This document shows positions 8,933 through 36,769 of a stretch of 41,442 nt of DNA, in pieces. Each line of letters begins with the position of its first letter. Positions within the stretch are counted from its first letter, which is position 1. The stretch covers positions 1 to 41,442 of the forward strand of contig JAAYBR010000127.1 of NCBI GenBank assembly GCA_012730045.1, given 5' to 3'. This DNA is from Candidatus Hydrogenedentota bacterium (lineage in GTDB: Bacteria; Hydrogenedentota; Hydrogenedentia; Hydrogenedentales; CAITNO01). A program made the translations under genes and the position numbers. The notes beneath the pieces were generated by a model that did no database searches, was not told the DNA's origin, and saw nothing but the letters and a program-made list of their open reading frames with translations.

Positions 8933-8946
8933 CGCGGCGGGCAGAA

Positions 8947-9297
8947 GACAAGGCCAGCGAGACGCTGGCGGTACGGGGGCGGGCGAGCGGGACAGCTCCG
9001 TACCGCCGCCGTCCCGGCGGCCTTGTCTTGGGGCTTCGCGCCAACCGGCGGTCGGAACGAACGACAAGGCCAGCGAGATGCTGACGGTACGGGGGCGGGC
9101 ATGCGGGGGCTGTTCCGTACCGCCGCCGTCCCGGCGGCCTTGTCTTCGGGCTTCGCGCCGGACCGGCGGCTGGAACGGAAGACAAGGCCAGCGGGACGCT
9201 GGCGCTACGGGGGCGGGCATGCGGGGGGTGTTCCGTACCGCCGCCGTCCCGGCGGCCTTGTCTTTGCTCTTTCGCTCATCGCCGTTTGGAGGAATTT
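8947..9297 (+). repeat. Three tandem ~117-bp units, each a potential four-way junction
   Basis: Units start at 8947, 9063 and 9181 with GACAAGGCCAGCG. In unit 1 an outer 9-bp stem (8947-8955 with 9019-9027), two small hairpins (8956-8966 and 9008-9018, each a 4-bp stem with a 3-base loop) and an inner 10-bp stem (8967-8976 with 8998-9007) meet with no unpaired base at the junction. Units 2 and 3 keep the plan with one mismatch or wobble per arm. The rest of each unit is a spacer with TTCGCGCC...CCGGCGG, decayed in unit 3. No coding sequence fits. It resembles a REP/MITE-type non-autonomous repeat. Confidence 0.85.
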
Positions 9298-9360
9298 ACA
9301 TGGATAAACAGGACGCACAGGATTTTCTTGTCCAATCCTGTCTATCCTGTCCATCCATGT
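9298..9360 (+). repeat. Palindromic element, copy 1
   Basis: Two 26-base arms (9298-9323 and 9335-9360), beginning ACATGGAT and ending ATCCATGT, pair imperfectly around an 11-base loop. The arms contain repeated ACAGGA/TCCTGT. A better-preserved copy is at 19137-19198, also directly after sequence of the four-way element. From its end to the next gene (9361-9537) no further element was recognised. Confidence 0.85.
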
Positions 9361-9537
9361 GAGTAATGCTTCCAACACTCCGGGCAGTGAATAGGCCACC
9401 GTCCCGGCGGTCCTTGGCGGTGCCGTTTCCCGCAGCTCTGAGGAATGAACCGTCCGGCGGTGTGTTATCATGGAAAACCCCCGGTGCGGTATGTTCCGGA
9501 CCGGACGGCACCCCCTGGAGCGAAAAGGAGCCTGACC

Positions 9538-18395: not shown

Positions 18396-18917
18396 ATGAC
18401 ACCAAGGAAGGCGGCGGGTATTGCGGCGCTGTCGGCCACATTGCTGGTTGCGGGATGCTCCTGGCTGGGGGGCGGGCCCCCGTTCGACGTGACCGGCGCC
18501 TACCGGGGCGTCTGGTCGGGCACCCTGCTCAGCGACGGCAGGCCCCGCACTTGCAGCATGTCCCTCTCCCTGGAGCATGACGGGGACTATTCCCTCCTCC
18601 AGGGCTATGTCCTCGAGGGCACGGCCACGGTGTACTTCACCTGCCCGTCCCTTTTTGACGACATTGCCGACGACGGCCTGCCGACCCGCCTCAGCACGGA
18701 GGTCACCGGATACGTCACCCGCTCCGGAAGGATCACCCTGGTCAGCGCGGAAACGGACAGCGACACCACCCTGGCCATCAGCATCCAGGGCACGGGGTCG
18801 GACACCAACGATAATGGGGACATGGACGCCCTCGACGGTTCCTGGAGCCTTGCCGTCAAAGTCCCCGACCACGACCAGTTCTCCCTCAAAGGCACCGTCG
18901 AGGCCAAGAGAAACTGA
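18396..18917 (+). CDS. Small hypothetical lipoprotein
   Basis: The 173-residue product has a lipoprotein signal (SATLLVAGC, lipidated at C21). The mature part is short beta strands starting DVTGAYRGVWSGTL and closing GSWSLAVKVPDHDQFSLKGTVEA, suggesting a small barrel-like fold of the kind in many outer-membrane lipoproteins; I do not recognise the family. An acidic DTNDNGDMDALDG stretch could bind calcium. AAAAAGGAG precedes the ATG. It follows the BACON-vWA gene by 54 bases and may be co-expressed with it. Confidence 0.75.
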   Translation: MTPRKAAGIAALSATLLVAGCSWLGGGPPFDVTGAYRGVWSGTLLSDGRPRTCSMSLSLEHDGDYSLLQGYVLEGTATVYFTCPSLFDDIADDGLPTRLSTEVTGYVTRSGRITLVSAETDSDTTLAISIQGTGSDTNDNGDMDALDGSWSLAVKVPDHDQFSLKGTVEAKRN

Positions 18918-18971
18918 GCCCCGGCAAACGGGCGCAGTGCCCGGCCTGCCGGTTTCAGTCTGCGGCGGCAG

Positions 18972-19003
18972 TGGACGGCGTGGACAGGCTGGACGGAGTG
19001 GAC
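18972..19003 (+). repeat. Nine-base periodic TGGAC array
   Basis: TGGAC recurs at 18972, 18981, 18990 and 18999, an exact 9-base period. The reverse complement of the same theme (GTCCAT every 9 bases) occurs at 36664-36696. No start codon with a ribosome site places it in a gene. Confidence 0.65.
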
Positions 19004-19073
19004 CCCGCAGACGTCATGCGCGCGCCGCGCACCTTGGAGAGCGGCAGCGTGTTGGGCGGGGCTTGGCCGGTGT

Positions 19074-19130
19074 GCCGCCGCCGTCCCGGCGGCCTTGTCT
19101 TTGGGCCCCGCGCTGGTTGGCGGCCGGGGA
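19074..19130 (+). repeat. Decayed copy of the four-way-junction repeat (right half)
   Basis: The segment shares GCCGCCGTCCCGGC plus GGCCTTGTCTT with the units at 8947-9297, then a similar GCGC...GGCGG spacer. The left half upstream (about 19030-19073) is no longer clearly alignable. The rest of the 457-base gene-free stretch 18918-19374 holds this remnant, the 9-base array before it and the palindrome after it; 19199-19374 shows nothing else I can name. Confidence 0.75.
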
Positions 19131-19136
19131 CAATTA

Positions 19137-19198
19137 ACATGGATGGACAGGATGCACAGGATTTTCTTCCTTATCCTGTCCATCCTGTCCATCCATGT
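19137..19198 (+). repeat. Palindromic element, copy 2
   Basis: Two 26-base arms (19137-19162 and 19173-19198) are complementary with one mismatch around a ten-base loop TTTCTTCCTT. It is the better-preserved relative of 9298-9360, and both copies lie next to four-way-element sequence with the same AATT(T/A)ACATGG junction. Confidence 0.9.
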
Positions 19199-19374
19199 GA
19201 ATGCCCCTCCCCATGCCCGGGGCATCCAGCCGGCCGCCGCCATTCCATGTTCCAGGAGTCTTCTGCCGCATGGCGCGGGGGGCCGGGAATCCTGTATGCT
19301 GGGGCGGCTTTGCGCATTTCATTCTTCCCTGTCCGCCCGTTTTTCGGGCACCGCGTTGTTGGAAAGTGGCCTTC

Positions 19375-22888: not shown

Positions 22889-23329
22889 TCAGGTGACCGG
22901 GTCCGATATGGGCGGGCTGCCCACGTCCGCGTCCGCGCCCTGGTTTGCGCGGATGATCCCGCTGGAGTCCACAAAGAAACCCCGCACCCCCGTCACCCCG
23001 TAGGTGGTGGCGTTGGCGTGCGAGGTGTAGTTGGCCTCCTCCCCCTCCAACGTGAAACTGTACCCGCTGCGCTGGGTGGTCCCCCAGTCGCCGTTCAGGA
23101 AGGGGGGGGTTGCCGTGGTCAGCTCTTCAAACTCCGTGGCGTAGCGGCTGTTGGCGGAGAAGTATCCCCCCTGCGCGGAGACAACCGCCCGGAGATTGTA
23201 GATGGCCGACGCCTCGTTGGCCTGGATGCGCGACCGCATCAGGTTGGGAATGGCAATTGCCGCAATAATGGCGATGATCGCCACCACGATCATCAACTCG
23301 ATCAGCGTAAAACCGCGTTGCCTGCCCAT
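22889..23329 (-). CDS. Type IV pilin-like / pseudopilin protein
   Basis: The product of 146 residues has a class III signal with prepilin peptidase site RQRG-FTLIE, E at +5 and a long hydrophobic helix (LMIVVAIIAIIAAIAIPNL). The globular part ends with GVRGFFVDSSGIIRANQG, typical of type II secretion major-pseudopilin or pilin-like proteins. It would be processed by a prepilin peptidase and assembled into a pilus or pseudopilus; no assembly genes are in the window. I chose the ATG at 23329, just before the signal; an upstream GTG at 23362 would add 11 residues. A sigma-54-type site lies about 85 bases upstream. Confidence 0.9.
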   Translation of the reverse strand: MGRQRGFTLIELMIVVAIIAIIAAIAIPNLMRSRIQANEASAIYNLRAVVSAQGGYFSANSRYATEFEELTTATPPFLNGDWGTTQRSGYSFTLEGEEANYTSHANATTYGVTGVRGFFVDSSGIIRANQGADADVGSPPISDPVT

Positions 23330-23412
23330 TTGCCCAACACCCCATAATTGCAAGTAGGACACGATGTCCCATACTTCTCACAAGGCGCGCACATAACCTC
23401 GACGGTTGTGGG

Positions 23413-26556: not shown

Positions 26557-29500
26557 TTATTGTTTCTGGCTCAGGCTTTCCAGCGCCTCGGCGATCTGTC
26601 TGCGCCGCGCCTCGATGGGCGCGGGGTCCTTGGTGAACTCGGTCAGGCTTTCCGTGATTTCCGGCGGCACGGCCAGCAGCGCGGAGAGACGGTCCCGCTC
26701 CTCCGGCGTCAGCCGGTCCCCCTTCTCCTCCAGCGCCCGCCGCAGCAGGGCCAGGTACTCGTAGTCCTCAATGCCGTCGCGCAGCATCTCGATGCGCACC
26801 GTGTCCACCGGCGGCTCAAACACCGGCCCGGCGGGCCGCCCGTCCGCCACCGACTCGGGGGGATACAGGAAGCGCCCGTCGCCGTTGCCCCAGGGGCGGC
26901 GCCCCGGCTCGTTGCCGTAGCCGTACTCCCACCCCATCGGGTCCTCGTAGGGGTTCTGAGGGTGTTCGGGGTCGGGGTAGGCCGTCGGGCTGTTCCACAG
27001 CAGGGTTTCCCAGATGAGCAGGCCCTGCACGCCCCGCTGCCAGGTCTGCCACAGCCACACGCGCAGCTCCGTGCCCGGGTGGTCAATGAACAGCGTCGCA
27101 TAGGGCGCCTTGGGCCCCGTGCAGATGTACCACCAGATCCGCTCGCCCAGCGCCTGCCGCGCCTGGGCCTCCTTCTCCCGCCACTCCGGCGTGAGGGGGC
27201 ACCAGATGTTGGGGCCTCCCGCCAGCTCGTCGTGGATTTCCTCCGTCAGCATCCGGTGGATGCCCGGCGCGGCGTCTTTCAGGCGCAGGAACCCGTCCAT
27301 GACGAAGGCGTAGTCCTTGGGCTCGGGCTCGTCGAACCAGTACACAAACCCGTCGTCCAGCCAGCCCTTCTCGCGCAGGTGCTCCTCCACCTGCCGGCAG
27401 TATTCCGTGAAGAGACGCCGGTACACCGGCGACTCCTCCGGGAAGCCCAGGAGCGACGGCGGCGTGCGGGAGTAGTAGGTGCCGCCGCCCATGCCCTCCA
27501 TGGGCACCGAGAAGGTGTTGAAGTGGTACTTTTCAAAGGCCTCCGCCATGGCCCGGTCGTACCGGGTCCAGTCAATGGAGACCTCCAGCGACTCCGGGTC
27601 CGCGGGGGGATTGTCCGGCGACACCTCCGGCCACCGCACGGTGAACGGGTCGAACGGGGCGGGGTCGTAGGGGCAGATGTGGTGGTCCGCCAGCGCGCGG
27701 AGATAGGCGTCCACCACGCGGCGCTGGTCCGCCTCTTCGGAGACGCGGTGGTATGCCAGGGGCTTGGAGATGTCCATGCCGAAGGCGGTCGTGCAGGTCA
27801 TGCGGTCCGGCAGGGTGAACCCGAACACGCGCACCTCCAGCGGCGCCTCCGTCTCATACCCGTCGGCTGCAACGCGCAGCGTTCCCCGGTACTCGCCCGG
27901 CGGCGTGTCCTTGGCCGGTTTCACGCGCACCCAGTAGGGCTGGTTCTCCCCGGCGGGAACGTCCACGGGGGCCGTCTGCGGCGGCAGCGGATCGGGCCAC
28001 GGCGCGGCCACGCCCGTCCGGTCGGTCGGCGTGGTCACGGGCACATGCCGGACCCGCAGCACGGACACGCCCTCCGCGGGGATCAACGCGCCGCCCGGCC
28101 CCTCCAGCGCGGAGGCGGTCACGGTCACGCCCCGCAGGGTTTCTTGCGGCCGCACCACCAGCTGCGCCGCCTCGGCCTCGTTTTGGGCTGTCTCAATGCG
28201 GACGGCCTTTCCCTCCGCGGCGGGAAGCGGACGGCCCCGGGGGATTCTCCATCCGGAGGAGGCCCACCACAGGCCGTCCCCCAGCCGCTCCCCGTACGCC
28301 GTGCTGTAATACTCCGAGACGTCGAGGGTGTGGCGCAGCCGGACCCCCTTCGCCTCAATGGTGAGCGGGTGCCGGCCGGACGCTGAAGGCACGGGCAGGG
28401 GCTCGCCAAGCTTCCCCCGGGAAAAGACCGTGTCGCCGTCCAGCAGCGCGGCCTCCCCGCCGGTCTCCGCGCCGTTCTGGCGAAGGCGCAGGGTGACGCC
28501 CTTTTCCGCGTCGTCCGGGGAAAACAGTCCGGGCGCCTCCACGGACAGGTCCATGCCGTCGGCCAGCTCCTCCACGGCGAGCCAGCGCGTGTCGCCCTTC
28601 GCGGTCAGGGGCGGCCCGTCCAGTTCCGCCTCCACGCGGTAGCCGTGCATCTGCACGCTGCCGCCGGACGCCGAGCTGACGGACAGCCGGACCCAGAGCG
28701 CCTCTGCGGGCAGCAGGGTTTCGGGCACGGTCACTCCGGTCTTTTCCCCCTCTCCGGGCTCGCCGATCTCCGTCCAAGTGGCGCCGTCCCGGCTGGCCTC
28801 CGTCCGGAACACGGCTTCGCCGTAATGTTTGGTCCACAGGAACAGCCGCGCGGAAGTGACGGGGTGTTCCGCAATGCGGTGCTCAAAGGTCAGGTACATT
28901 CCATCGGAAAACACCATGCGGTATGTGTTGAATCCCGCAGTGAACTCCCGCGTGGGCCGGCACACGTTCGTGTTGTTCTCCGCCATGGGCGCCGCGAAGA
29001 AGTAGTCGTTGCCGGCGATCCGCTCGCCCGCGCCCAGCTCCACCGCCCCGAAACGCGCGTGGGCGGGCACCGCCCGGCAGAGTTGCAGCCCGTCAAAGCG
29101 GAACCGGAAGTCGCTTTCCCACTGTCCGAAACGGAACGACGACGGGCCCTCCCGGTGCGGGGTCGAGAACACCAGTTCCACGGGCTGCCACTGCTCGGTG
29201 AGGTTCGAGAGGTCCACGCTGAACACCCCCGTGCCCGTGACAGCCAAGCCGGCGTGCTTGCCCTCGCCGTCCCTGGCGGCGAAGAAGCGGAGGAGATAGG
29301 GCTTTCCGGGATCCAGCGAAAAGTCGCCGGACTGCCAGAAGGAGAGCGTCTCCCTCTGCCCCGTGCCCCGGATCCAGAGGCTGCGACTGCCGTCCCTGGG
29401 CTGCGCGTCGTCCAGCCCGCCCTCCCCGCCGGACAGGGTCCAGCCGGTTGGCGCGCCCGGAGCGCTCCCCTCCTCAAACGAGGGGTTGACCGTTTCCACA

Positions 29501-29568
29501 ACCTGTGCCGCGGCGAAACCGACCGGGATGGACACCGCAAGGGCGAAAATGCGCGCAAGACCCTTCAC
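26557..29568 (-). CDS. Secreted DUF4091 glycoside-hydrolase-like protein
   Basis: The 1003-residue product carries a signal peptide (IFALAVSIPVGFAAAQ). Order of domains: a carbohydrate-binding-like sandwich (NPSFEEGSAPGAPTGW..., residues ~25-170), a second beta domain with discoidin-like features (~180-320), a beta-rich linker, then the long DUF4091 region with a TIM-barrel-like core and the family signature LRDGIEDYEYLALLRRALEE near residue 920. DUF4091 proteins are predicted glycosidases of planctomycete-type and Bacteroidetes genomes. The GTG start at 29568 follows AAAGGAGG. First gene of the operon. Confidence 0.85.
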   Translation of the reverse strand: MKGLARIFALAVSIPVGFAAAQVVETVNPSFEEGSAPGAPTGWTLSGGEGGLDDAQPRDGSRSLWIRGTGQRETLSFWQSGDFSLDPGKPYLLRFFAARDGEGKHAGLAVTGTGVFSVDLSNLTEQWQPVELVFSTPHREGPSSFRFGQWESDFRFRFDGLQLCRAVPAHARFGAVELGAGERIAGNDYFFAAPMAENNTNVCRPTREFTAGFNTYRMVFSDGMYLTFEHRIAEHPVTSARLFLWTKHYGEAVFRTEASRDGATWTEIGEPGEGEKTGVTVPETLLPAEALWVRLSVSSASGGSVQMHGYRVEAELDGPPLTAKGDTRWLAVEELADGMDLSVEAPGLFSPDDAEKGVTLRLRQNGAETGGEAALLDGDTVFSRGKLGEPLPVPSASGRHPLTIEAKGVRLRHTLDVSEYYSTAYGERLGDGLWWASSGWRIPRGRPLPAAEGKAVRIETAQNEAEAAQLVVRPQETLRGVTVTASALEGPGGALIPAEGVSVLRVRHVPVTTPTDRTGVAAPWPDPLPPQTAPVDVPAGENQPYWVRVKPAKDTPPGEYRGTLRVAADGYETEAPLEVRVFGFTLPDRMTCTTAFGMDISKPLAYHRVSEEADQRRVVDAYLRALADHHICPYDPAPFDPFTVRWPEVSPDNPPADPESLEVSIDWTRYDRAMAEAFEKYHFNTFSVPMEGMGGGTYYSRTPPSLLGFPEESPVYRRLFTEYCRQVEEHLREKGWLDDGFVYWFDEPEPKDYAFVMDGFLRLKDAAPGIHRMLTEEIHDELAGGPNIWCPLTPEWREKEAQARQALGERIWWYICTGPKAPYATLFIDHPGTELRVWLWQTWQRGVQGLLIWETLLWNSPTAYPDPEHPQNPYEDPMGWEYGYGNEPGRRPWGNGDGRFLYPPESVADGRPAGPVFEPPVDTVRIEMLRDGIEDYEYLALLRRALEEKGDRLTPEERDRLSALLAVPPEITESLTEFTKDPAPIEARRRQIAEALESLSQKQ

Positions 29569-29698: not shown

Positions 29699-30160
29699 TC
29701 AGCGCAGGCGCTTGATCTGCACGAGCTGCCCGTTCAGTTCTTTGCTGCGGTGCCAGATCTGATCGCCGACGATTTCAAAATCAAAAACCTGTTCCTGTCC
29801 GCCGAAGGTGCCCGACACCCGCATCTTGTCATGGGTTACGGACCATTTCTCCTCGACGTAGTCCACCCCGTAGAGTTGCTTGGCCATCGGATTGGACGCG
29901 TACACCACGCCGCCTGCGGCCAGGGTGCATTTGGTCGGGAACCCATAGACGACAACCTCCCATTCCGAACCGATCAGGTTGCCCTCATTAAGCAGGGGGG
30001 GCGTCTTCGCGGGTTCGGCCGGAACGGAAGGCGCGGCGTTTGCGTCGCCGGCGACTGCAGGTGCCGGTTTCTGCCCCCGTATCATCTGCATCACAATCGG
30101 GAACCCGAGGAACACGATGAGCACCGCGCCAAAGATGAAGAGAAACTTGTTGTCTTCCAC
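29699..30160 (-). CDS. Membrane-anchored protein of unknown family, tandem paralog A
   Basis: Unrecognised family. The 153-residue product has the short cytoplasmic start VEDNK, one transmembrane helix (FLFIFGAVLIVFLGFPIVMQ), a Pro/Ala linker (~26-55) and a C-terminal domain of ~100 residues beginning TPPLLNEGNLIGSEWE, with NPMAKQLYGVDY, GTFGG and VFDFEIVGD and ending QIKRLR. Paralogs B and C share this plan. GTG at 30160 is chosen because it aligns with the ATG of both paralogs and because a promoter (30203-30230) lies between it and the longer in-frame start at 30250. Alternating strands suggest a small beta-barrel outside the membrane; this is inference. Confidence 0.8.
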   Translation of the reverse strand: MEDNKFLFIFGAVLIVFLGFPIVMQMIRGQKPAPAVAGDANAAPSVPAEPAKTPPLLNEGNLIGSEWEVVVYGFPTKCTLAAGGVVYASNPMAKQLYGVDYVEEKWSVTHDKMRVSGTFGGQEQVFDFEIVGDQIWHRSKELNGQLVQIKRLR

Positions 30161-30202
30161 GGCTAAGAACTCTCGGGTCGCCCAAAAAAAATCACTATTA
30201 TC

Positions 30203-30230
30203 AGTATACAGAGAAAGGTTTTTTTGACAA
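30203..30230 (-). promoter_or_regulatory. Promoter of paralog A
   Basis: On the minus strand: -35 TTGTCA (30230-30225), 16-base spacer, -10 TATACT (30208-30203). The leader to the GTG is about 35 bases. The rest of the 302-base gap between paralogs A and B (30231-30462) has a short GCCGTGG/CCACGGC hairpin at about 30380-30398 without a T-run, and nothing else recognisable. Confidence 0.75.
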
Positions 30231-30462
30231 GGATATATTGGTTCAACCAATTGGTCTGTGGGCCTGCGGCGCAGGGAAGGGATGGGGACGGCAACGGCTG
30301 CGGCGTCTTATCTCAGGAGGCACCCTCCGGCAGGGTCAGGAACAATCCTGCTCCGGACCATCCAAGTGCCTGTGAGGAGACGCCGTGGTCCCACGGCTGT
30401 GGAAGGGGGGGGCAGTCTCTCCCAAGTAAACGGGACGGGAAAGGACTGCGGGGGGGAATACA

Positions 30463-30924
30463 TCAGCGGAGGCGCTTCACTTCCCCCAGTTTTCCCTTTA
30501 ATTCAGGGTTGTGATAGAACAGTTTGCTTCCGATGATTTCGAAATCGAACTCGTAGTCTTTTCCCCCGAAAGACATAAACATTTTCACCTTCTCATAGTT
30601 CACCTGCCACCGGCCCTCCAAATAGTCCACACCGTACACCTGTTTCGCCATGGGATGGGACGCGTAGACAACCCCCCCGGCGGCCAGGCTGACCGTCACC
30701 GGAAACCCCTGCACGTCGGCCTCCCACTCGGTGCCGATCAGGTTGCCCTCATTGAGCAGCGGCGGCTCCTTTGGGGGCTGCGCGGGGGCTTCCGCCGCCC
30801 CCGCCGGGGTGCCGGGGGCGCCCGCCTTGGCCGGCCCCCCGCGGGCCGCCTGCAGGACCACGGGCAGTCCCAGAAACACAACCAGCACCGCCCCGAAGAA
30901 AAACAGAAACTTGTTGTCTTCCAT
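30463..30924 (-). CDS. Membrane-anchored protein of unknown family, tandem paralog B
   Basis: The 153-residue product shares the plan of A and C: MEDNK, one transmembrane helix (FLFFFGAVLVVFLGLPVVLQ), a Gly/Ala/Pro linker, then PPLLNEGNLIGTEWEADVQG, HPMAKQVYGVDYLEGRW, SFGGKDYEFDFEIIG and the end EVKRLR. Identity to A is highest in the membrane helix and the LLNEGNLIG-EWE and AAGGVVYAS-PMAKQ blocks. No cysteine, no catalytic pattern. The ATG at 30924 has AGGGACC at normal spacing and its own promoter upstream. Function unknown. Confidence 0.85.
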   Translation of the reverse strand: MEDNKFLFFFGAVLVVFLGLPVVLQAARGGPAKAGAPGTPAGAAEAPAQPPKEPPLLNEGNLIGTEWEADVQGFPVTVSLAAGGVVYASHPMAKQVYGVDYLEGRWQVNYEKVKMFMSFGGKDYEFDFEIIGSKLFYHNPELKGKLGEVKRLR

Positions 30925-30994
30925 TGCAGAGGGTCCCTAATGAAACGCCACCTGTTTCCTGACCTGAAAAACGCCGCCGCCAGCGCCCACTGTG

Positions 30995-31023
30995 ATTGTA
31001 ACAGGCCGCGCCTTATTCGACAA
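30995..31023 (-). promoter_or_regulatory. Promoter of paralog B
   Basis: On the minus strand: -35 TTGTCG (31023-31018), 17-base spacer, -10 TACAAT (31000-30995), about 70 bases before the ATG. Confidence 0.75.
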
Positions 31024-31109
31024 GGGAAAATTTACGAAAACCCCGAAGCGGGAGCCGGGATCGGCGGGACGGGTGTGCGGACAGAGAGCGCCGCGCGGGG
31101 GAAGCCCGG

Positions 31110-31556
31110 TCAACGGAACCTCAAGATCTCATCCATCTTCTTGGATTTTGGGTTCACGAAATACACCTTGTCGCCCATTATCTCCAAGTCTATGGCGTAA
31201 TCCGTGCCCCCGAAACTGGTGGTAACGTGGACCTTGTCATAGTTGATGGTCCACCGTCCTTCCAAGTAGTCCTGGCCTGTGAACTGCTTGGCCATGGGAT
31301 GGGTGGCGTAGGCGACGCCCCCTGGGCCCAGGGTGATCTTAACCTTATAATTCTCCACGGTCGCCTGCCATTCGGAATTGATCAGGTTTGCCTCGTTGAG
31401 CAGCGGGGGGGTCTTGGTGGGCGGGGGGGGGGCATCCGCTGTGACGGCGGCCCCTTCAGTGGCAGGCTTTCCCTTCACCACCTGCATCACGATTGGGAAA
31501 CCCAGGATGCCGGCCAGCACCACCGCAAAGACGATAAGAACTTTGTTGTCTTCCAT
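31110..31556 (-). CDS. Membrane-anchored protein of unknown family, tandem paralog C
   Basis: The 148-residue product is the most diverged of the three: MEDNK, a transmembrane helix (VLIVFAVVLAGILGFPIVMQ), a shorter Pro-rich linker, then TPPLLNEANLINSEWQATVE, HPMAKQFTGQDYLEGRWTINYDKV, SFGGTDYAIDLEIMG and the end DEILRFR. Blocks kept in all three paralogs (PPLLNE-NLI, EW, PMAKQ, DY-E--W, FGG, D-EI-G, R-R) probably mark the fold or a ligand site. AGGGAC precedes the ATG, and its promoter overlaps the stop of the agarase-like gene. Function unknown. Confidence 0.85.
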   Translation of the reverse strand: MEDNKVLIVFAVVLAGILGFPIVMQVVKGKPATEGAAVTADAPPPPTKTPPLLNEANLINSEWQATVENYKVKITLGPGGVAYATHPMAKQFTGQDYLEGRWTINYDKVHVTTSFGGTDYAIDLEIMGDKVYFVNPKSKKMDEILRFR

Positions 31557-31648
31557 GCCGTGAAGTCCCTAACAGACAGCGTTGAACCCCTGAAGAAACC
31601 GCCCCGCACCCGGGAGCGACCGGTCTGCCCCCTGGAAGGGGGTACCTT

Positions 31649-31677
31649 CTTATACCGTAAAACGGTTCCGTAGTCAA
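31649..31677 (-). promoter_or_regulatory. Promoter of paralog C
   Basis: On the minus strand: -35 TTGACT (31677-31672), 17-base spacer, -10 TATAAG (31654-31649). The -35 overlaps the stop codon of the agarase-like gene, so the paralog can be expressed independently of it. Confidence 0.75.
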
Positions 31678-33722
31678 CCACCCGCGCGCAACGAATAGAG
31701 ATTCGCGTTGGCTTTGCGCGCCCCGGCGCTCAGCTCCGGGTACGGCGTGTCCGTGACGTCCACGAAGCCGATGTTGTAGTTTTCCCCGTCGTGGGTGCGT
31801 CCCGTCACCGGCTCGTCCAGATACTGGAACCAGTGGCACCCCACGAAAAGCGGGTGGGTGGCCACGCTCTCCACATACCGCGCGTAGGCCGCCGCCCGCT
31901 CCTTCTGGTCCTTTGTCCGGACAAGCCCTGTGTGAAACATGCCCCGGTCCAGGGCGCCAAAGTGAAACTCCCCGATCAGGGCGGGCCGGTCTATCAGGTC
32001 GGTCCATTTCTCCCTGGGGATTTGGCGCTGGTAGAGGTTGAAAGACACCACGTCCGAGGTTTCCCCCGCCGCGCGCACCACAGGATCGGGCGCCCCGGAG
32101 AACCGGCATCCGAGATAGAGCTGGTGGGGGGCATGCCGGCGGACCGCCGCCTGCACCGTCTCAAAATACCGCCGGGCGAACCGGTGCAGAAAGGCCGACA
32201 TGTCCGCCAGAAACACCTCGCCCCGAACGGCGGGCGTGTCCAGATGCTCCCAGTCGGGGAAGGCGCTTTTCCAGGCGGCGTTCAGCGCGTCCAGGCTCCC
32301 GTGGCGTTCCTGGAGAAACGCCACCAGCGCCGCGCGGGCGGGCTGGGTGGGCGGGCTCTTCAGGCAACCGTCCCCCACGCCCTCCCAGGCCAGCTCGTTG
32401 TCCACAAAGTAGCCGATGCAGAGCGGGTTTTCCGCGTGGGCCTGCGCGATGCCCGCGAGGGCCTTGTCCACGGCCGCCTCAAATTCAGGGGAATAGACAT
32501 CCATCATCTTCGCCCAATATCCCTTTGCCGCCTCAATCTTCGGCACCCCCCACAGGCCCGTGGAGACCACATAGGGGAGGGGGCTGTTCTCCAGCACGTC
32601 CTGCTGGCTCCAGTTCCCCAGCGTGTTGAACCCCCAGTGCCCCAGCCGGGCATAGGCGCTGTCCCGCCAGCGTTCGGGCCACGGTTCCCCGTGCTTTCGA
32701 CGCAGGTTCGCCCGGTAGAAACTGAAGGTGCGCCCCCCGCCGCCGATGGGCTCCGCCATGCTGTGCACCCCCCTGACCTCGCCAAAGAACCCGCCGAACA
32801 CCGGGTCGTCCGGGGCGGGCAGCCACTCAAACCAGGGCTCGCGCTTCTCCACGAAGGTCTGCTCCCACGTGCCCACGCAGTCCATGCCCACGGAGAAGAA
32901 GAGCCGCCCCTCGGGCGTGACGAGCCACCATTTCCCGTCCACCTTCTCCGTTCGGAACCAGCCCGTCGCCTCCAGCTGCGGCCCCTTGGTCCAGCCGCCA
33001 AACCGGTCCCGGTCGCGGACATGGGGGGATTTCGCCCAGGCGCGCTCTTCGCGCCGCCGCCTTTCTTGAAACTCCCCCTCCTTCCGGAGTTTTCCGGGCC
33101 AGTCGGCGTGGAGATACTGTCCGAACCGGTTGATGAACGGAAGGGGGACCCCCGCCGCGCCCCCTTCTCCGAAGAGGGTGATCTTCTCGAGCACCAGCGT
33201 GTGCTCCCGGGCCGGCCGGGGCAGGAAGACCTGAAACGCCGTGATGCGCGCCGGGTCAATGACCTCCCCCTCCCCGCGCGGGGGAAGCACGGGCACCCCG
33301 CGCATGCCCCAGAGGGTGTCGGCCTCGCTGGATTTGAACCGCATCCTCAAGACGGCGCGCCCCTTGGGGGGCGCGGAACAGGCGGCGGTGTTGGTGGCGT
33401 GCCAGCCGTCCGCCCCGGCGTTGTCCACGCGCAGGGAGAAGTCAACCGGCTCGCCCGCCGGGTTGAACACCTGCACGGCGATGCCCGCCCGGCCCGACCA
33501 GTCCCACACTCCGCCGGCCGGCGGGGTGAACAGGACCTGCGGCCATTCCGCGGTTCCAAACCGCACCTCCAGCCCGCCGCCCCTTCGTTTGGCCGGAGCC
33601 GTTTCCGCATGATGGGTGACGGCATTCGCCGGCAGCAGCCCGGCGGAAAGATCAAACAGGGGCTCCTCGTTCGGGACGGCGGACAAGGCCGCCGTGCACG
33701 CCAGCACCGCCGCGAAAACCAT
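31674..33722 (-). CDS. Secreted GH50-like (agarase-type) glycoside hydrolase
   Basis: The 682-residue product has a short signal peptide (VFAAVLACTAALSA). An N-terminal beta sandwich of ~200 residues precedes a clan GH-A TIM barrel with acid/base candidate E443 in GYFVDNELAWEG and nucleophile candidate E585 in ALIGEFHFGALDRGMFH; the latter is typical of GH50 beta-agarases, as are GCHWFQYLDEP and NIGFVDVTDTPYPEL. Substrate is likely a galactan, but not proven. ATG at 33722 has AAAGGAGG eight bases upstream. It is monocistronic by appearance; no terminator was seen before the paralog C promoter, which overlaps its stop. Confidence 0.82.
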   Translation of the reverse strand: MVFAAVLACTAALSAVPNEEPLFDLSAGLLPANAVTHHAETAPAKRRGGGLEVRFGTAEWPQVLFTPPAGGVWDWSGRAGIAVQVFNPAGEPVDFSLRVDNAGADGWHATNTAACSAPPKGRAVLRMRFKSSEADTLWGMRGVPVLPPRGEGEVIDPARITAFQVFLPRPAREHTLVLEKITLFGEGGAAGVPLPFINRFGQYLHADWPGKLRKEGEFQERRRREERAWAKSPHVRDRDRFGGWTKGPQLEATGWFRTEKVDGKWWLVTPEGRLFFSVGMDCVGTWEQTFVEKREPWFEWLPAPDDPVFGGFFGEVRGVHSMAEPIGGGGRTFSFYRANLRRKHGEPWPERWRDSAYARLGHWGFNTLGNWSQQDVLENSPLPYVVSTGLWGVPKIEAAKGYWAKMMDVYSPEFEAAVDKALAGIAQAHAENPLCIGYFVDNELAWEGVGDGCLKSPPTQPARAALVAFLQERHGSLDALNAAWKSAFPDWEHLDTPAVRGEVFLADMSAFLHRFARRYFETVQAAVRRHAPHQLYLGCRFSGAPDPVVRAAGETSDVVSFNLYQRQIPREKWTDLIDRPALIGEFHFGALDRGMFHTGLVRTKDQKERAAAYARYVESVATHPLFVGCHWFQYLDEPVTGRTHDGENYNIGFVDVTDTPYPELSAGARKANANLYSLRAGG

Positions 33723-35476: not shown

Positions 35477-36559
35477 ATGAAACCAAGAACCAAGATGGAC
35501 GAGATCATGGAGACGGTCTTCCGGAAATTCTTTTCCGGACAGGCAGTGGCCGCCGCCCCGGAGCTGACGGTGGCGGAAGGCGACGGCGCGGTGCGGTGTC
35601 TGGCGTGCGGGCACCGGTGTCTGGTGCGGCCGGGTCGGCGGGGGGTGTGCCGGGTGCGGGTCAATGAGGGGGGCGCACTGAAGGTGCCCTTCGGGTATGT
35701 GGCGGGGCTGGCGGCGGACCCGGTGGAGAAGAAGCCGTTCTATCATGTGAAGCCCGGGCGCGTGGCGCTGTCGTTCGGCATGCTGGGGTGCAACCTGCGC
35801 TGCCCCTTCTGCCAGAACTGGAACACGAGCCAGGTGCTGCGCGACCCGGCGGCGGGGGCGGCGGCGCACGCCTGCACGGCGCGGGAGATCGCCGAGGCGG
35901 GCGAACGCGCCGGGGCGGCGCTGATGGTCAGCACGTACAACGAGCCCCTGATCACGCCGGAATGGGCACGGGCGGTTTTTGAGGAGGCGAGGCCGCGGGG
36001 GATGCTGTGCGGTTTTGTGAGCAATGGCTTCGCCACGCCCGAGGCGCTGGATTTCCTGCTTCCCGCGCTGGATGTGTTCAAAGTGGACCTGAAGTGTTTT
36101 GACGCGCACCGCTACGGGGAGCTGGGCGGGCGGCTTGCGGAGGTGATGGACACGCTGGAGCGGCTGGTGACGGCGGGGGTGTGGGTCGAGGTGGTGACGC
36201 TGCTGGTGCCGGGTTTCAACGACGACGCGGAGGAGCTGCGGCGGCTCGCCGCCTTCCTGCACGGGCTGTCGCCGGACATCCCGTGGCATGTGACGGCGTT
36301 CACCCCGCAGTACCGGAAGAAGGGCACCCGACCTACCACGGCGGACGACCTGACCCGGGCGTGGGACATCGGGAAGGCGGCGGGGCTGCGCCATGTCTAT
36401 ACGGGCAACCTGCCCCGGCAGACGGGGTCTCGGGAGAACACCTTCTGCGCCGAGTGCGGCGCGGCGCTGGTGGAGCGTTCCGGATTCCAGGTGCGCGCCC
36501 TGCGGCTGTCCGGGGGGAAGTGCCCCGAATGCGGAGCGGCGGCACCGGGCCGGTGGTGA
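35477..36559 (+). CDS. amrS: AmmeMemoRadiSam-type radical SAM protein
   Basis: The 360-residue product matches the AmmeMemoRadiSam radical SAM subfamily, related to pyruvate formate-lyase activases. The cluster motif is CNLRCPFC (C-x3-C-x2-C), preceded by an N-terminal cysteine block (CLACGHRCLVRPGRRGVC) and followed by VSTYNEPLITPEWA, VDLKCFD and LVPGFNDD, with a C-terminal four-cysteine site (CAEC...CPEC). The system normally pairs it with AMMECR1 and Memo proteins; neither is in the window. The start at 35477 (MKPRTKMDEI) is the first ATG near the conserved N-terminus; the GGGAG before it is close, so the start is tentative. Confidence 0.88.
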   Translation: MKPRTKMDEIMETVFRKFFSGQAVAAAPELTVAEGDGAVRCLACGHRCLVRPGRRGVCRVRVNEGGALKVPFGYVAGLAADPVEKKPFYHVKPGRVALSFGMLGCNLRCPFCQNWNTSQVLRDPAAGAAAHACTAREIAEAGERAGAALMVSTYNEPLITPEWARAVFEEARPRGMLCGFVSNGFATPEALDFLLPALDVFKVDLKCFDAHRYGELGGRLAEVMDTLERLVTAGVWVEVVTLLVPGFNDDAEELRRLAAFLHGLSPDIPWHVTAFTPQYRKKGTRPTTADDLTRAWDIGKAAGLRHVYTGNLPRQTGSRENTFCAECGAALVERSGFQVRALRLSGGKCPECGAAAPGRW

Positions 36560-36570
36560 GGCGCGCGCCG

Positions 36571-36696
36571 CACGGACTGGCACGGACGAACACCGACGGA
36601 CACGGACAGCATCCGGCAGGCGGAGATGGGGGCTGCGCGAAGGCTCGGGTTTCGGCTCTCTCCGTCCATCTTGTCCATGCCGTCCATTGCGTCCAT
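36571..36696 (+). repeat. Ten-base CACGGAC array and nine-base GTCCAT array
   Basis: CACGGAC-like units (CACGGAC, CACGGAC, CACCGAC, CACGGAC) begin at 36571, 36581, 36591 and 36601, an exact 10-base period. After a 50-base spacer GTCCAT recurs at 36664, 36673, 36682 and 36691, an exact 9-base period. The second array is the reverse-complement theme of the one at 18972-19003. They fill most of the 251-base gap between the radical SAM gene and wecB. Confidence 0.75.
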
Positions 36697-36739
36697 GCTG
36701 ATTGAAGGTTTCCCCGGCACCCGCACCATGCCCCCGCCG

Positions 36740-36769
36740 TTGGGATGCCGCCCGCCGTTGGGGTATGAT
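36740..36769 (+). promoter_or_regulatory. Possible promoter of wecB
   Basis: -35-like TTGGGA (36740-36745), 18-base spacer, -10 TATGAT (36764-36769), about 40 bases before the GTG start. The -35 is weak. Confidence 0.5.

Follow-up and report, generated by a model that had tools for sequence, protein, structure and literature searches.

Three tandem genes on the minus strand of a 41,442-nucleotide stretch of Candidatus Hydrogenedentota DNA (referred to as the window) may encode membrane-tethered, extracytoplasmic, lipocalin-like binding proteins of a new Hydrogenedentota family, a reading in which we place about even confidence. The fold is already known, and the family itself is new and uncatalogued. 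It provides an uncultured phylum with a conserved envelope family that is missing from the catalogs, whose fold is predicted and whose function can be tested; its one barrel domain occurs on different membrane anchors and in secreted proteins.

All three proteins are built on the same plan, with a short N-terminal tail, one transmembrane (TM) helix, a Pro/Ala linker, and a C-terminal domain of ~100 residues (Table 1). An earlier note on this DNA had described three diverged tandem minus-strand paralogs with this common plan and a set of conserved motifs, and both the coordinates and our alignment agree with that description. Pairwise protein identity among the copies was 45–56%, the motifs listed in the earlier note were invariant or nearly so in the three-protein alignment, and the DNA of the copies formed repeats that are 68–75% alike. 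The sister species G001 possesses the same triple array with the same hydrolase on its upstream side, and its ortholog of gene 3 has an ATG at the same start position. The dN/dS ratios of the three ortholog pairs with G001 were 0.14, 0.14, and 0.30, with gene 3 being the fastest-evolving copy, and hence these are three real coding genes. Judged from these sequence comparisons, all three genes are intact, functional, and under purifying selection. The array had also been called old. It does predate the split between the window's genome (G000) and G001, but the triple set was absent from the other genera searched, and the array is a duplication product within the genus of the window and an expansion of one subfamily (subfamily A). 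The profile search additionally retrieved three more paralogs elsewhere in the same genome, on contigs C83, C147, and C98, which the earlier note had missed; a further match in this genome, on C75, was judged to be due to chance.

Table 1 Features of the three-gene array and of the adjoining genes in the window
Feature	Position	Strand	Details
GH42-like glycoside hydrolase	31674-33722	minus	directly upstream of array
Promoter-like site, gene 1	31649-31677	minus	TTGACT-N17-TATAAG
Gene 1 (P0001)	31110-31556	minus	subfamily A; ATG; 148 aa
Gene 1, TM helix	about 31485-31541	minus	
Gene 1, C-terminal barrel domain (predicted)	31113-31409	minus	
Weak intrinsic-terminator-like hairpin	31041-31053	minus	between genes 1 and 2
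Promoter-like site, gene 2	30995-31023	minus	TTGTCG-N17-TACAAT; TG before -10
Gene 2 (P0002)	30463-30924	minus	subfamily A; ATG; 153 aa
Gene 2, TM helix	about 30853-30909	minus	
Gene 2, C-terminal barrel domain (predicted)	30466-30765	minus	
Promoter-like site, gene 3	30203-30230	minus	TTGTCA-N16-TATACT
Gene 3 (P0003)	29699-30160	minus	subfamily A; GTG; 153 aa
Gene 3, TM helix	about 30089-30145	minus	
Gene 3, C-terminal barrel domain (predicted)	29702-30001	minus	
GH123-type glycoside hydrolase	26557-29568	minus	downstream of array

Profile searches, as the earlier note had suggested, uncovered a phylum-wide uncatalogued family that had escaped it. Of 60 related genomes, 36 had family members according to a six-sequence profile, among them all 17 genomes of the same taxonomic family, and a 46-sequence profile detected it in 46 of the 68 Hydrogenedentota genomes searched (E ≤ 1e-5). 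All relatives fetched by sequence, using degenerate back-translation of the three-paralog alignment, belonged to Candidatus Hydrogenedentota, and the plasmids searched contained no match. As far as searched, the family thus appears to be specific to the phylum Hydrogenedentota. In a tree of 75 members, subfamily A comprised 27 rows (support 100/99) found only in the taxonomic family of the window, and subfamily B comprised 28 rows (support 97/95); the remaining rows (“C”) did not form one clade. A C gene is directly followed by a B gene in eight genomes from three other taxonomic families of the order (G018 and G026; G022, G034, and G039; G025, G031, and G036). The diversification of tethered binding proteins can be studied here along a clear history: two adjacent genes in the order's other families, a third subfamily in the family of the window, and a triple array in one genus.

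Neither Pfam nor NCBIfam contained a family that matched the window proteins above its cut-off, in keeping with the earlier statement that no family was recognizable; matches to DUF2207 were too weak and were discarded. The nearest catalogued model was TIGR03066 (Gem_osc_para_1), which by its name also describes a paralog family, of Gemmata, and was matched by nine of 46 members (best E 0.0089). However, these matches lie far below its cut-off of 93.25 bits, with the best relatives at about 17 bits, no match for the window proteins, and none of 60 genomes passing. For Pfam Lipocalin_4 (PF13648; gathering score 22.4 bits), the best relatives reached 16–17 bits and the window proteins had no match. 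Several relatives also matched DUF5640 and META weakly, and none of these matches passed the gathering score.

AF2 models of the whole of protein 2 and of the isolated domain of protein 1 both showed eight antiparallel strands, the first preceded by a short helix (pLDDT block means of 75–91 over residues 51–153 of the whole protein, mean pLDDT of 81 for the isolated domain). When the models were compared to the PDB with Foldseek, TP0435/Tp17 of Treponema pallidum was the best match of the family domain (probability 1.00 for both models; the isolated domain aligned with TM 0.61/0.65), and further matches included avidins, FABPs, UnaG, BT_0846, NlpE, and, for the domain model, potempin E (8ehd). 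No PDB match of either model reached E 0.001, and a viral fold library yielded nothing at E 0.001 either, its best match being a phage lipoprotein (E 0.003). The family profile matched intestinal FABP at E 0.002, and the sub-threshold Pfam matches of relatives comprised Lipocalin_4, DUF5640, META, and GH43_C. The fold matches, the FABP profile match, and the sub-threshold Pfam matches converge on a calycin-type barrel, and we predict with moderate confidence that the domain is an eight-stranded antiparallel up-and-down barrel of the calycin (lipocalin-like) type. Structure prediction and Foldseek matches thus both agree with the small beta-barrel proposed earlier.

With the calycins (lipocalins, FABPs, avidins, and VtrC), the family shares the predicted eight-stranded antiparallel barrel with a helix before strand 1, a tryptophan on strand 1, and a near-invariant arginine on the last strand. 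It differs from them in having GTxW instead of GxW, in lacking a significant sequence or fold E-value, and in consisting of phylum-specific paralogs. The SCR1 signature of lipocalins is a GxW at the 3-10 helix and first strand (PMC5040251). Strict GxW was not found in the family, as the motif reads GTxW or GSxW in 65 of 76 members and NTxW/ATxW in the other 11, whereas the first-strand tryptophan itself is 100% conserved in these 76 members. Arginine R151 on the last strand (91% conserved) may correspond to the SCR3 basic residue, which stacks on the SCR1 tryptophan in calycins. Because of the deviating GxW signature, we refer to the fold as lipocalin-like and do not file the family as a lipocalin. 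The conserved residues are structural (W67, W106, G132, G84, G121, R151, and P21 in the TM helix), and no catalytic-type residue set was found among the conserved positions. A reading as enzymes was rejected on this ground, and binding is favored over catalysis. Against a background of widely divergent linkers and domains, residue P21 (P0002 numbering) is conserved in 95% of the members, a hint that the TM helix is more than an anchor.

Two characterized proteins resemble the architecture of the window proteins. VtrC combines a TM anchor at its N-terminus with a calycin-like barrel in the periplasm, and binds a bile salt together with VtrA (PMC4933562). TP0751 of Treponema pallidum, which shares an anchor, a disordered linker, and a lipocalin-like barrel with the lipoprotein-type relatives, consists of a disordered region and a lipocalin domain that binds heme with a Kd of 11.7 uM; its authors propose that the disordered part aids loading and offloading, and liken Tpp17 to TP0751 (PMC7521688). 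TP0435/Tp17, TP0751, and NlpE are, however, lipoproteins, whereas the window proteins use a TM helix, and none of the three has detectable sequence homology with the window proteins; their function cannot be transferred. By analogy with TP0751 and VtrC, we propose that the window proteins are membrane-tethered binding proteins, and that members of the family probably act outside the cell membrane, binding either a partner protein or a small molecule. Each copy has, as its tether, a minimal N-terminal tail, a TM helix that is not cleaved and contains the conserved proline, and the flexible Pro/Ala linker. In the most likely mechanism, the interior or rim of the barrel would bind its ligand near the membrane, either a partner protein or a small molecule that is probably hydrophobic or derived from the envelope, and the linker would give the barrel enough reach to collect this cargo and pass it on. 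After duplication, the copies probably diverged both in their ligands or partners and in their expression.

Potempin E, a small Tannerella protein that inhibits a protease, raises the question whether the three proteins are protease inhibitors or other binders of protein partners, with a barrel that would block or dock to an envelope enzyme in the manner of calycin-type metalloprotease inhibitors, and paralogs that differ in target. Periplasmic metalloprotease inhibitors with a calycin-type fold have been described (PMC4933562), and small size, tethering, and paralog divergence would fit target specificity. However, no protease gene was a conserved neighbor in the loci compared, and neither an inhibitory N-terminal strand nor an inhibitory motif was found; on balance, we regard this function as unlikely. 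The matches to NlpE and TP0435, which is 35% identical to NlpE (PMC4861935), would likewise be consistent with NlpE-like sensors of envelope stress or trafficking, whose tethered barrel reports defects to a membrane sensor, as would the occurrence of family genes across most genomes of the phylum. Yet the loci compared contained no sensor kinase or regulator as conserved neighbor, and the window copies lack a lipobox and did not match NlpE models, which makes a sensor role rather improbable.

The domain architectures of the relatives bear on the side of the membrane. Nine relatives are lipoproteins, in which a signal peptide with lipobox precedes a Pro/Ala linker and the same domain, and one TM-anchored and one lipoprotein-type copy lie side by side in G047. 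In three larger secreted proteins with signal peptides (L140 in G050, L142 in G035, and L143 in G046), the family domain comes last, after redoxin, c-type-heme (CxxCH), and Cu-monooxygenase-like parts. It also forms the C-terminus of a secreted BNR/glycosylhydrolase-like protein (L141) and follows two DUF1579 domains in a TM-anchored protein (L144:801-2312, G018:C49). Heme attachment to c-type cytochromes takes place exclusively outside the cytoplasm, and the lipoprotein relatives and secreted c-type-heme proteins therefore indicate that the domain works there. Its extracytoplasmic location is well supported by these architectures, which agree with the placement on the outer face in the earlier note, and the same orientation is likely for the three copies in the window. 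In these copies, the stretch that follows the TM helix carries more positive charge than the one before it, which leans against an extracytoplasmic domain; over the family, the charge rule gave no clear answer, with flanking charges pointing one way in 29 members and the other way in 30.

Of 97 distinct proteins, 90, large secreted ones among them, carry the domain at the extreme C-terminus (≤3 residues after the match), as would be expected if the barrel were an attachment or sorting module that places proteins in the envelope without binding a ligand. Most members, however, have an anchor of their own (TM helix or lipid) and no other domain, and no known sorting-domain model was matched, so that such a role seems very improbable. 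Extending the preferred reading as tethered binding proteins to the whole family, we tentatively suggest, with somewhat less than even confidence, that a mobile, phylum-wide lipocalin-like module serves as the main envelope carrier or adaptor for small molecules, in the form of tandem TM-tethered proteins, of lipoproteins, and of a part added to the C-terminus of secreted proteins with redox or hydrolytic activity.

The genes of the array are separated by wide intergenic gaps (185 and 302 nt here, 180 and 322 nt in G001). The earlier note had assigned each copy its own sigma-70-type promoter, and the hexamers indeed sit at the positions it gave and are real consensus matches for all three genes (Table 1). 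The best site in each 150-nt upstream stretch scored better than 97.5–100% of its own shuffles. The site of gene 1, whose -35 overlaps the hydrolase stop codon upstream, is kept in G001 as TTGACT-17-TATAAA, and that of gene 2 as TTGCGG-N17-TATACT, with a changed but still well-matching -10 and a weaker -35. The third site, in contrast, is missing from this position in G001, where a different TATAAT lies slightly farther upstream. A separate promoter for each copy is thus plausible from sequence. Over the whole protein family, promoter enrichment was weak (mean best score of 8.2 versus 7.4 in shuffles), and own promoters can therefore not be claimed as a family trait. That the copies are used at different levels or times, as the earlier note suggested, is a weak lead. 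The hairpin between genes 1 and 2 was not seen at the same place in G001, and intrinsic-terminator-like sites were no more common than by chance. An Rfam search of the window returned only a tRNA, far from the array.

The earlier note had placed the array between two glycan-degradation loci, and glycoside hydrolase genes do flank it on both sides (Table 1). In G000, G001, G015, G018, and G050, the GH42-like gene is the immediate upstream neighbor of family genes and shares their strand; in G026, it lies 1.1 kb upstream of them. These six genomes represent three taxonomic families of the order and, together with the BNR/glycosylhydrolase-like part of L141, could point to accessory proteins of glycan degradation tied to the neighboring hydrolases. 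Nevertheless, the GH42-like hydrolase is present in 42 of 60 genomes, mostly away from family genes, the GH123 gene was not a conserved neighbor in the loci compared, and subfamily B is linked instead to a short-chain dehydrogenase (PF00106), encoded within about 160 nt after the B gene in 17 genomes. A role in glycan degradation thus remains a weak lead and, in our view, improbable. Four of the 17 dehydrogenase-linked genomes also carry the tight C-B pair, and C, B, and the dehydrogenase gene therefore probably represent an old operon. The B-dehydrogenase pair is conserved within the taxonomic order (loci include L012, L065, L078, L079, L081, and L088). A YhbY gene is found beside A genes in five genomes and, in G026, beside the C-B pair. 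Two other apparent neighbor groups (comps 2 and 4) proved to be antisense shadows of family genes.

Elsewhere in the window, a protein with two LysM domains is encoded at the contig end (40276-41442, minus); its very long, repetitive Pro/Glu/Ala linker contains 12-, 18-, and 54-bp tandem repeats. Positions 22889-23362 (minus) encode a single pilin-like protein whose N-terminus carries a methylation motif (PF07963). Beside a gene end, positions 8945-9264 hold a 118-bp tandem repeat in 2.7 copies, with an inverted pattern around GACAAGGCC. The pattern “WMDRMDRI” recurs in intergenic translations at about 9300-9440, 18600-19200, and 36400-36760, and corresponds to a dispersed DNA repeat of the GGATGGACAGG type.
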